From the IMG/VR virus record IMGVR_UViG_3300050821_002518, positions 1-56,312 of that record: 56,312 nucleotides of DNA. One strand, given 5' to 3'. Source of the DNA: a virus. The notes below the pieces were generated by a model that ran no database searches, had not been told where the DNA came from, and worked only from the letters and a program-made list of their open reading frames with translations. The position numbers and the translations under genes were made by a program. Below, in pieces: positions 1,250 to 54,505 of this stretch. The first letter of the stretch is position 1. Each line of letters starts with the position of its first letter.

Positions 1250-1797
1250 AGCTTTAAGCTCCTAATTTCAGATGACGCAGATACTCTAGCACGTATCTTC
1301 TGCCACTTCAAGCGGTTCGCTTCGTTGCCGGCGGTGGGGTTCGGGCGCTTCGGTCCGAGCTTCACTCCCCGGGCCTTCAGGGCGGCCAGCGCCGCCTTTG
1401 TGCGCTGCGATATCATCGCGCGCTCTTTCTCGGCCAGGGCGGCGAAGAGGTGAAGCATGAAGTTATCTACGTCTGGCCCCAACTCGGCCACCATAAAATG
1501 GACCTTATGCACCATAAGGCCGCTTATAGTGTGCACGTCGCGGCTCAGGCGATCCAGTTTGGACACGATAACCGGGCCGCCGAGCGCCTTAGCCGCCGCT
1601 AGAGCGGCGATCAGCTGGGGGCGCTCCGTGAGACCGTCAGAGACGCGTTTCCCGCTCTGCACCTCCGAGAATACCTCCAGCACCTCGATTTTCTCCCTAA
1701 CACAGAACTGCTCGATAGCCGCTCTCTGCGCTTCCAGCCCTAAACCAGATCTGCCTTGTTCGTTTGTAGACACTCGAACATATGCGACGGCCTTCAT
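1246..1797 (-). CDS. small serine recombinase (resolvase/invertase catalytic domain)
   Basis: 183 aa. Visible resolvase motifs are [10 protein letters not shown] with the nucleophilic Ser near residue 10, SKLDRLSRD (the conserved Arg-rich loop) and [20 protein letters not shown] leading into the long E helix. In this family the enzyme cuts DNA through a phosphoserine link. Full-length resolvases end in a helix-turn-helix. Here the protein stops about 40 residues after the E helix, with GVKLGPKRP and then no clear HTH. It may therefore be a truncated or diverged form, or rely on a partner for DNA binding. ATG coupled to the HNH gene by ATGA. Confidence 0.85.
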
Positions 1798-2261
1798 AGA
1801 TGTCTCCAGGTACGGCGCTCGCGTACTGACTTGATAACTGGCCGAGATACTCCGAACTGCCGAGCCAGCGCGCTATCCGTCGCGCCGTGAGATGCGCGGA
1901 TCTGCGTCACCTTGCCGGCATCTAATTTCGCCAGCCCGTGGCGCTCGCCTCGGGCAGTAGTCCCGTGACGCTGCTTATCGGCATGATTGGCGAGCGTAGT
2001 TTTCCAGGTTAGATTGGCTAGCCGGTCGTCGTTCTTCACGCCATTGTCATGTGCCGCCTCATGTCCCGACGGGCACGGGCCGCGAAATGTTAAGAGCACT
2101 ATGCGGGACATTCTCAACGTCTTGCGTGCACCGCTGCTGTCGTAGAGAGTAACACGAGAGTAGCCGCTGTCGGTGCGGCCGATAGACATCTTACCTCGCG
2201 GACCGAACATCTCGCCACGTCCGTTGACGTAGTATGCCGGGAACCCTGGTATCTGTTTCAT
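1794..2261 (-). CDS. HNH endonuclease with C-terminal HTH
   Basis: 155 aa. The N-terminus [15 protein letters not shown] resembles the NUMOD4-type DNA-binding segment. The centre [22 protein letters not shown], followed by [10 protein letters not shown], is the HNH core: the His in AAHDNG, Asn in NDDRLANL and Trp. The C-terminus [18 protein letters not shown], then [18 protein letters not shown], is an HTH repeat typical of phage HNH proteins. Free-standing HNH genes of this type act as homing endonucleases or as packaging-associated nicking enzymes. ATGA overlaps both neighbours. Confidence 0.85.
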
Positions 2262-51506: not shown

Positions 51507-51719
51507 TTATTTCCCCGATTTATAACTTGTACGACCGAATAGTGCGGCGCCGAGAACCCCCAGCTGCCACGATTGGAACCACGTCAGCTCGCTGACATGG
51601 AACACAGTACTGATCACTGCGTTCCAGGTCCACTCTATGAGGAACGCGTTGATAAATACCATCAGCGCTAGCGTCAGCACGAACACCGCCCCAGCATTAA
51701 AAAGTTTCCAACCATCCAT
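51507..51719 (-). CDS. 70-aa membrane protein
   Basis: Two hydrophobic stretches (AGAVFVLTLALMVFINAFLI and WQLGVLGAALFGRTSY) around an aromatic loop. AGAGGTGAT precedes the ATG; it starts four bases after the polymerase stop. Likely inner membrane, unknown role. Confidence 0.6.
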   Translation of the reverse strand: MDGWKLFNAGAVFVLTLALMVFINAFLIEWTWNAVISTVFHVSELTWFQSWQLGVLGAALFGRTSYKSGK

Positions 51720-51722
51720 ATA

Positions 51723-54287
51723 TCACCTCTTTCCGTAACGAACGTTTGTCCATAGATCCGCCGCGATTGGCAGACCCTCCATCCACTTTTCTTTGGTCTT
51801 TAGTACCGCCATGAACCTAGCCTCGGAGTATGAACCTTTCGGCACATCAAGTCCAATCTCATCATGGACGTGAAGCGATATCGCCGTCCGCGCGTACGGC
51901 TCCAGCGTGTTCAGGTAGGCGACGATCTCCGGCACCGTCAGCGTATCGTCATGCACGCGCAGCATCGCTGCGCGTAGCACGTCGTTCGCAGTCGCCTGCA
52001 CTATGTTCTCGACAAAGAGCCCTGACCACGCACGCTCGCGGCGCCAGCTGCGGCCGCGCACTGTGAGGTATGAGGCGTACCGCGTCTTCCAGGCCCTGCC
52101 GCCGGTCGGGTCCTCGATCAGCTCCTCTCGCAGCAGCGGCGAGGCGTACAGCAGCCGGCGCCCGCTGGGCAGCTCGATAACCAGGAACGAGGCATTGCAC
52201 CAGATAGCGCACTTCGCAACGTGATAGACCGTCCCGTTCTTGTCGGCTACCGCTTCCAGTATCGCGGTGTTCAGATCGTAGCGCATCTGATTGATCGCGG
52301 GGTTGGCTATGCGGAACGCCTGCTTCAGGATATCGCACGCCATGTACACCGGCCGCTCAAGCTCGAAGTCTTCACCCTTCAGGAATGCGCGCTCCCAGGC
52401 GCGGTTCGCTTTCTCCAGCTGCTCAGGTGTAGCCGTCGGTAGCACTAGGTCGGCCAGCGGATCAAGATCCATCTGGTACGCGACGGACATGTTCACCAGC
52501 GCCGCGACGCCGCCGCCGAAGCCGAACGCGAGGATACAGACCTTGCCCATCTGCCGCTCGTTCTCGTTTACATCTTCCGGCCGCTTGCCTAGCATTTTGC
52601 CGGCTAGAATACGGTACGGATCCTTCGACTTATCCTTCGGGTTGTCGAACGAGAACTGGAACGCGTCGAGCACGGACTGCTCGCCCGCGATCCATGGCGT
52701 GATCACGCTCTCGATATTTTTGAAGTCGCCGACTACTAATTCATTACCTTGCGCAGCAACGATGCCGTGACGTAATGCTATGGACGCTAGCTCGAAGGCG
52801 CTTACGGTTGTCGTATACGTCTCAGATTTTCTGAGCGCGTCAACCACTCTAAATTGGAGAGAGCCGGATTTGCCCGGTCCCGATCCAAGTGATGCACCTC
52901 CGGCTTGCGTTGCGGGTTGGGTAAAAAGGTCAACGCCACCAACCGATGCACGGTCTTCACGTAGCGCCGGCTGCCCTTGTATAAGTGAACTATCCGATAG
53001 CCGCGGTTGTTCAATTGGGTCGACAAGAAATGCGCCAAGATACGCCTCTTGGCGGGCTGCTTGTTGCGCAACAGATAGCGCTGTAGCTTCTCGACTGTCC
53101 GTATCGCGCCTAGCGTGCTGATTTCGTAGAGCCCCTCGAAACCCTGTATCGCCTTCCAAGTTTCCATTTAATTTATCGCCTCTGATGAATGGGAGGACGA
53201 CAGAATCAATATCTGCTGCCTTAACCGGCTCCAGCTCGATTCGTCCAGCATGCGTGAATCCGTCAGGGCGCCGGGTAGTGATAGCCGGACGTGGTAAATT
53301 ATGCGGTTGTACCCCTCGCGCAGCGTGGCGACCTGTACGGCCCGCGCCCGACCAACGACACCAGTGGCGGATGCGCGCCTCGGGTCCAACCAGACTAAGT
53401 CCTTTTTTGAATTTAGTACCAGAATTTTTTCCAGCTTCAAGCCGCTCTTCGAGAACAGTGCGAAGAATTGGGTCCAGGTCATCGGATTCGAGGTAGTCAC
53501 GTACGTCTCCAGCTCTGAGTGAGTCGATGTCGATATCGTACCGGTTGCGGATATACGCCAGCAGCCGCTTCGCTTGTGTGGCGGACCCAACCTGGTTGTC
53601 AGTATTCTCGCGCATCACCTTGCGTGACGCCTCACGCGCCAGGTCGAGAAAATCTGAGGCGGCCTGCGCCAACTTCACGTCAAATCCGAAGCCGCGCTCA
53701 TTGACCAATTGGTCGAGCATCCAGCTGCGCAGATTGATGCCAGCGTAGTTCACCTGCGGCATGCGATTGAACGCGGTGCGCAGTGCCTCGGTGTCGCGGA
53801 TCGCGTACTTACAGAAGCGATCGAACGCTTCCGGTGCCTCGTGAGGCTCAATAAATTTCCCAGTTGCAGCCTGCGGAACGCAAAACGTGTCGATAAGAGA
53901 TTTGTCGTCGACCAGTTTCGCCTCGTCTTCATTGAGGCCGCATACTCTGCCCAAGCCTTCGAGCGACGCCGGAAGCCCGTGCGCGCTCGCGCCGGCCATC
54001 GTGCAGCGCCAGCGCGAGAGACCGGTAACGAGCTTGAGCGCTCGGGCGTAGATCAGCCGGTCGAACGCGGCGTTGTGCGCGACGATCAGGAACTCAGGGT
54101 CGTCGAGCGCGTCCTTCAGATCCTGCGGGCACAGCTCCCCGAAGATGGGGAGCCATATCTTGATCGCACCGACCGCGAATCCGTACGTCACGATCATGCA
54201 CTGGGCGGCCCGCGTGTAGCGGTCCGTCCCGGCGCTGATGTCGACGCGGCTGCGTGTCTCGGTGTCAGTGAACAGGATCTTCAGCAC
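51723..54287 (-). CDS. family A DNA polymerase with exonuclease domain and an unusual insert
   Basis: 854 aa from GTG 54287 (VLKILFTDTETRS, the usual start), overlapping the upstream stop. Exonuclease motifs are TDTETRS, HNAAFDRLIYARAL and YAIRDTEALRTAF. The polymerase follows: GAGRTGRHAARGVQPHNLPR, motif A VVGDFKNIES, DPYRILAGKMLGK, motif B GKVCILAFGFGGG and motif C SLHVHDEIGLDVP. Between PFIRG and TTTVSAFELAS the frame runs through ~125 residues that do not resemble a polymerase. This stretch coincides exactly with an HNH gene in the +1 frame. The reading frame stays open, so the enzyme may carry this insert just before motif A. Confidence 0.85.
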   Translation of the reverse strand: MLKILFTDTETRSRVDISAGTDRYTRAAQCMIVTYGFAVGAIKIWLPIFGELCPQDLKDALDDPEFLIVAHNAAFDRLIYARALKLVTGLSRWRCTMAGASAHGLPASLEGLGRVCGLNEDEAKLVDDKSLIDTFCVPQAATGKFIEPHEAPEAFDRFCKYAIRDTEALRTAFNRMPQVNYAGINLRSWMLDQLVNERGFGFDVKLAQAASDFLDLAREASRKVMRENTDNQVGSATQAKRLLAYIRNRYDIDIDSLRAGDVRDYLESDDLDPILRTVLEERLEAGKNSGTKFKKGLSLVGPEARIRHWCRWSGAGRTGRHAARGVQPHNLPRPAITTRRPDGFTHAGRIELEPVKAADIDSVVLPFIRGDKLNGNLEGDTGFRGALRNQHARRDTDSREATALSVAQQAARQEAYLGAFLVDPIEQPRLSDSSLIQGQPALREDRASVGGVDLFTQPATQAGGASLGSGPGKSGSLQFRVVDALRKSETYTTTVSAFELASIALRHGIVAAQGNELVVGDFKNIESVITPWIAGEQSVLDAFQFSFDNPKDKSKDPYRILAGKMLGKRPEDVNENERQMGKVCILAFGFGGGVAALVNMSVAYQMDLDPLADLVLPTATPEQLEKANRAWERAFLKGEDFELERPVYMACDILKQAFRIANPAINQMRYDLNTAILEAVADKNGTVYHVAKCAIWCNASFLVIELPSGRRLLYASPLLREELIEDPTGGRAWKTRYASYLTVRGRSWRRERAWSGLFVENIVQATANDVLRAAMLRVHDDTLTVPEIVAYLNTLEPYARTAISLHVHDEIGLDVPKGSYSEARFMAVLKTKEKWMEGLPIAADLWTNVRYGKR
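52802..53167 (-). CDS. HNH homing endonuclease nested inside the polymerase gene
   Basis: 121 aa, same strand as the polymerase, +1 frame. An in-frame TAA ends directly before the ATG at 53167, with AGAGG about 11 bases upstream. ETWKAIQGFEGLYEISTLGA is a NUMOD4 motif (W..I.GFEG.YEIS..G). NNRGYRIVHLYKGSRRYVKT and VHRLVALTFLPNP, then VHHLDRDRANPALSNLEW and LTRSEN form the HNH_3 core. The stop TAA is at 52802. Intact motifs mean it is probably functional. It fills nearly the whole insert of the polymerase, leaving no space for an intron. Confidence 0.85.
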   Translation of the reverse strand: METWKAIQGFEGLYEISTLGAIRTVEKLQRYLLRNKQPAKRRILAHFLSTQLNNRGYRIVHLYKGSRRYVKTVHRLVALTFLPNPQRKPEVHHLDRDRANPALSNLEWLTRSENLRRIRQP

Positions 54288-54505
54288 AGCAGATCCATGT
54301 CCTTTTTCCAATCGTTATAAGCATCGGCCGGCGTCAAGCCGAACCCTGTTACTAACCCACCGCTAAGACGGCACACCCAGGTCGGTGCACCCGCCAACTT
54401 ACTGATTTTAGGTTTCGCCAGCAATGGCAATAGACGGCGACGATTCTCCTGTAGCTGGTAATACGGACCCCGGAACAGAGGAGGTAACGAGTTTCGAGTA
54501 TTCAT
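54281..54505 (-). CDS. hypothetical protein, 74 aa
   Basis: AGGTG four bases before the ATG. LPLLAKPKISKLAGAPTWVC, RLSGGLVTGFGLTPADAYND, then WKKDMDLLC. The G(L)V(T)G.G.TP.DAY.(D)W ending is a small phage pattern in which the product may be a single-domain protein. It overlaps the upstream gene by 98 bp and the polymerase start by seven. Confidence 0.55.
   Translation of the reverse strand: MNTRNSLPPLFRGPYYQLQENRRRLLPLLAKPKISKLAGAPTWVCRLSGGLVTGFGLTPADAYNDWKKDMDLLC

Follow-up and report, generated by a model that had tools for sequence, protein, structure and literature searches.

We asked how a homing endonuclease gene can reside within a phage DNA polymerase gene whose own reading frame passes through it without a stop. 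The arrangement lies on the minus strand of IMG/VR virus record IMGVR_UViG_3300050821_002518, whose 56,312 bases were analyzed as a whole and are called the window here. A first-pass annotation of the locus had left two explanations standing: either one stretch of DNA encodes both an HNH endonuclease and an insert just before polymerase motif A, or a cryptic splicing event removes the insert.

A foreign segment in an uninterrupted polymerase gene

The host gene is an uninterrupted open reading frame (ORF) of 862 aa at 51723–54311 (minus strand), identified by the ORF list, family matches and fold as a family A DNA polymerase with a 3′-5′ exonuclease; its TTG start is a mechanical call, and translation may really begin a few codons further in. 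Profile searches matched the ORF to phrog_17 (E = 3e-75) and Pfam DNA_pol_A (E = 9e-11), and the top Foldseek matches of its structural model were to the Klenow fragment (E = 1e-13). The exonuclease motif and polymerase motifs A, B and C are all kept in the alignment (DTET, VVGDFKNIES, GKVCILAFGFGG, LHVHDE), and the 862 codons contain zero stops and zero frameshifts, bearing out the earlier description of a frame unbroken through the HNH gene.

Constraint on the polymerase is normal for its clade. Values of pN/pS between the window and its relatives were 0.16–0.22 in the C-terminal part and 0.21–0.33 in the N-terminal part, compared with 0.14–0.24 and 0.17–0.29 between the relatives themselves, placing the C-terminal values inside the relatives' own range; these ratios are averages along a long branch (dS of at least about 0.8) and do not prove function after the insertion. 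At conserved N-terminal columns the window carries 13 unique changes and the relatives 0–7, and five of the window's 13 (H352F, R354H, I372V, I373L and G375F) lie no more than about 25 residues from the insert.

Alignment with close IMG/VR relatives that lack the insert (about 77–85% identical), the comparison suggested in the first-pass annotation, set the edges of the foreign segment at 52797 and 53183 (minus strand). It spans 387 nt, corresponding to polymerase residues 377–505, and lies about 24 residues upstream of motif A. Where the relatives read ..DDVIIPGI-YSGAALNNPLVYGGP-FEAVAIAVRHG.., with 15 conserved codons (45 nt) in the middle, the window reads ..DSVVLPFI-[129 residues]-FELASIALRHG... 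The net gain of 342 nt, or 114 codons, is divisible by 3 and falls short of the 366 nt of the HNH gene. The earlier statement that the inserted length preserves the polymerase frame thus stands for the net length, but the event, as read from this alignment, is a replacement of host codons rather than a clean insertion between two of them. Relatives conserve the 15 replaced codons well, so the polymerase plausibly pays some price for their loss.

The foreign segment opens with the leader AGAGGCGATAAATTAA (53168–53183, minus strand), in which a Shine-Dalgarno-like AGAGG stands 11 nt upstream of the HNH ATG; we assign it a putative role as the ribosome-binding leader of the HNH gene. It closes with GCGCC (52797–52801, minus strand), the final 5 nt past the HNH stop, after which the alignment shows polymerase homology restarting at FELASIALRHG. 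The two edges share no word of at least 6 bases that would mark a target-site duplication, and a search for an internal promoter of the HNH gene found none. A check of IMG/VR, in which near-identical records may be masked, returned no second copy, leaving this record as the one carrier found there.

An AlphaFold2 model of the polymerase, built on an alignment of 28 polymerases, gave pLDDT values mostly above 90 outside the insert and below 50 across model residues 374–491 (polymerase residues 381–498). The polymerase-frame insert is accordingly predicted to be a disordered loop, as would fit a loop tolerated at the protein surface, activity aside.

The nested HNH endonuclease

The nested gene encodes a 121-aa NUMOD4-HNH endonuclease at 52802–53167 (minus strand), recognized by Pfam, alignment and fold, with an ATG start and a TAA stop. 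Its ATG begins at the second base of a polymerase codon, placing it in the +1 frame relative to the polymerase, and ORF and frame analysis upheld both the position and the nesting given by the first-pass annotation. Pfam detected NUMOD4 (E = 7e-12) and HNH_3 (E = 6e-9); the core was modeled by AlphaFold2 at pLDDT 94, and I-HmuI (1u3e) was its closest solved structure (Foldseek E = 7e-7) and also a sequence match (phmmer E = 2e-9). Invariant or near-invariant residues among 34 HNH sequences are retained, including W4, G20, H74, H93, N105 and N114.

The gene had been called complete, and its own ATG, own stop and core motifs justify that word for the nuclease core. Beyond the core the comparison with relatives tells otherwise: measured from the end of the matched core, the ORF extends for about 7 aa and 85 of 86 relatives for 21 aa or more, with a median of about 67 aa (typically about 60–70) among the relatives. 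On this comparison the C-terminal part is missing and the 3′ end has been trimmed. The C-terminal region of I-HmuI makes contact with DNA. Because the part absent here is found in nearly all relatives, the nuclease is possibly crippled, and its product may be weak, non-specific or defunct. Codon-position GC in the insert, highest at position 3, tracks the HNH frame, which suggests that the HNH gene was the original coding sequence here and that the polymerase reading is secondary.

A direct search of viral contigs for further carriers of the same HNH gene found nothing above 38%. The best HNH relative (47%) is a free-standing gene of Zobellviridae phage T5S1; it was considered as a possible split polymerase and rejected, as the neighboring 'DNA polymerase I' ORF lacks polymerase motifs. 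Likewise discarded was a candidate nested case in OP585105, where an HNH match fell on a tail-sheath gene: the product annotated as 'putative tail sheath protein' (UYL86279.1; L200, 2381–2923, OP585105.1) is itself an HNH_3 endonuclease (E = 5e-14) and is mis-annotated.

Several further features were observed around these genes. A second HNH_3 protein of 155 aa (E = 2e-7), apparently free-standing, lies near the opposite end of the window at 1794–2261 (minus strand). Within the HNH ORF, at 53054–53033 (minus strand), the hairpin CGCCAAGAGGCGTATCTTGGCG is followed by a T-rich tail and resembles a terminator, with a chance expectation of about 0.8; an internal terminator is likewise known from T4 mobE (PMC2988022). 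In two distant relatives, NUMOD4-HNH ORFs lie immediately upstream of the polymerase start (L066, 4343–4855; L025, 2908–3411).

The open frame and its explanations

Across the HNH region the polymerase frame contains no stops and the third frame eight. When the HNH protein was recoded synonymously, the polymerase frame stayed open in 0.6–1.4% of trials, depending on the scheme (1.4% with phage codon usage, 1.1% by permutation and 0.6% with the HNH gene's own usage). Of 86 related HNH genes in other phages, not one can be read in an alternative frame without meeting a stop; since the G+C content of most of these is lower, the recoding trials are the more reliable measure. Taken with a net length divisible by 3, an open frame of about 1% probability implies a joint coincidence of a few per thousand, an argument weakened by the fact that the case was chosen for its open frame. 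Chance is thus an unlikely source of the open frame, and neither that frame nor a length divisible by 3 would be required under splicing or gene splitting.

We therefore favor, with a probability of about 0.72, an intronless HNH insertion that was trimmed at its 3′ end and is read through as a tolerated loop of the polymerase, with the nuclease started internally. An HNH homing-endonuclease gene carrying its own ribosome-binding leader and no intron would have entered the phage polymerase gene; the HNH 3′ end and 15 polymerase codons would have been lost or overwritten, producing an in-frame junction; and selection would since have kept the polymerase frame open across the HNH gene. The polymerase would be made as a single chain in which some 129 foreign residues (net +114) form a disordered loop at the surface, with no splicing of its RNA or protein, and translation of the HNH protein, if it is made, would begin within the polymerase mRNA at the ATG of the HNH gene. 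Between the two explanations offered at the outset, the one in which the stretch serves both endonuclease and polymerase insert is thus the best supported. Its strongest form, true dual coding in which 387 nt specify an active HNH enzyme as well as a tolerated loop of a working polymerase and the endonuclease persists without splicing, is a tentative proposal that we consider doubtful.

Alternatively, the polymerase could consist of two separate chains split by the HNH gene, like nrdA of Aeh1 or gene 43 of Aeromonas phage 25, with the open frame incidental. Polymerase and NrdA of T4-type phages retain activity when split (PMC2988022), and split polymerases occur in the same clade. The break in L009 and L110 (about 62% identical) lies some 65 nt upstream of the site occupied in the window, the N-terminal half ending ..TLTVKRES before its stop and the C-terminal half restarting MIKIELTPVK or MSRIELTPVK. 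An endonuclease VII gene (Pfam E = 4e-17), its stop overlapping the restart ATG, separates the halves in L009 (3888–6545), where a search for an intron found none; a short spacer alone separates them in L110 (1–520). In the window, however, no stop follows the N-terminal half and no polymerase-frame ATG lies close to the HNH end; the sole nearby in-frame start is a GTG within the HNH gene, lacking a well-spaced Shine-Dalgarno sequence, and preservation of the frame would have to be coincidence. Two chains are an unlikely state for this polymerase on these grounds.

Other polymerase genes of this group showed features of their own. Directly past the N-half stop, L009 and L110 both carry a 22-codon ORF (MSDLERLKQYIQMMSAPAIVEN). 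The polymerase of a related phage (L076, 3934–6801) contains, ahead of GRLIQVQNLP, an insert of some 300 aa that resembles an intein (CLTGDHEIL ... RVWVTGN|S) and is unflagged by Pfam. Among the genome contigs, no relative of the polymerase clade was found.

Recent non-functional decay would account for the locus if the insert had inactivated or impaired the polymerase and the frame were open by chance. The truncated HNH 3′ end and the 15 conserved polymerase residues now gone are in keeping with such a history, as is the excess of unique N-terminal changes, several of which adjoin the insert. It is set against 862 codons free of stops and frameshifts, retained motifs, pN/pS at the level of the clade and the roughly 1% probability of a chance-open frame, and we rate decay as rather improbable.

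Less probable still is a degenerate or unusual self-splicing intron, with the HNH gene as its ORF, that is excised from the mRNA. HNH genes of phage polymerases usually lie in group I introns, as does I-PfoP3I of Pf-WMP3 (PMC3428280), and the RNA fold of the insert is slightly better than that of shuffled sequences (z = −1.4, with 6 of 100 shuffles equally good). Yet an Rfam search of 2.7 kb (51700–54400) at E ≤ 5 matched no intron family, while the group I intron of the Pf-WMP3 polymerase gene, run as a positive control under identical settings, was detected at E = 1.2e-5. The HNH ORF fills the segment, as had been noted, and because the net 342 nt is less than the HNH gene, there is no room for a separate intron core. 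Nor would excision rebuild the ancestral polymerase, since 15 conserved codons have been replaced and the spliced product would be short of those residues. We accordingly reject a group I or group II intron of a known family, and the cryptic splicing put forward by the first-pass annotation is unsupported. An intein was rejected as well: the HNH gene lies outside the polymerase frame, and the polymerase-frame peptide, beginning RGDKL and ending TTTVSA, lacks the first C/S and last HN of inteins, in agreement with the earlier reading that intein ends are missing.

That the metagenomic contig is chimeric or misassembled, as the single record carrying the insert might suggest, is very improbable given a polymerase frame kept at both junctions, an insert that begins at a ribosome-binding leader and two polymerase halves that come from one clade.

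Relation to known insertions and significance

The closest precedent for an intronless, read-through insertion is the ShiLan domain described by Arsenault, Gosselin and Gogarten in 2025, an out-of-frame HNH gene in a phage DNA methylase whose host frame is open and in which there is neither intron nor intein; Pacc40 gp60 is a second case (PMC11855218). In both ShiLan and the window, an out-of-frame HNH ORF fills an insertion in a phage DNA-metabolism gene, the host frame stays open, a stop codon stands at the insert's end, intron and intein are undetected, and the host-frame peptide is predicted to be disordered or looped out. The differences begin with the host, a family A DNA polymerase in the window and a methylase judged non-essential in ShiLan (PMC11855218). 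The window's HNH gene is in the +1 frame, starts at an ATG behind a Shine-Dalgarno-like leader and replaces 15 host codons, whereas ShiLan uses the third frame, starts at a GTG at position 18 without a recognizable ribosome-binding site (PMC11855218) and was inserted between two codons. The window's NUMOD4-HNH protein lacks its C-terminus, whereas ShiLan encodes a full 195-aa HNH protein with zinc fingers. A disjunct distribution would point to homing by a ShiLan-type insertion; for the window's insert one carrier is known, from IMG/VR.

Two further groups share part of the arrangement. I-HmuI, I-BasI and I-PfoP3I of Pf-WMP3 (PMC3428280) are I-HmuI-type HNH enzymes encoded within phage polymerase genes, as in the window, but they lie in group I introns, whereas the window has neither an intron core nor room for one and its host frame is open. 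Intronless insertions of endonuclease genes are known from mobE in nrdA of Aeh1, mobA in T4 gene 60 and a seg-like gene at gene 43 of Aeromonas phage 25 (PMC2988022). Like the window, these place a free-standing homing endonuclease gene in a critical phage gene with no intron; they split the host into two chains, whereas the window's host is a single 862-aa ORF. Among the papers that our literature search covered, none described a hidden out-of-frame HNH gene in a polymerase. The arrangement is a rare one of an already published kind; its new elements are that the host is a polymerase, that a host segment has been replaced and that the nuclease is truncated.

It has been thought that a homing endonuclease can occupy a critical gene only by way of an intron, an intein or a host protein that is split but reassembles. 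Together with the 2025 methylase precedent, the window suggests a fourth way, in which the overlapping host frame stays open and the insert is carried as a loop. A polymerase host makes the cost of such an insert directly measurable by enzyme assay, and because the same clade shows splitting at a nearby site (L009 and L110, with endonuclease VII), both fates of an invaded polymerase gene can be compared.
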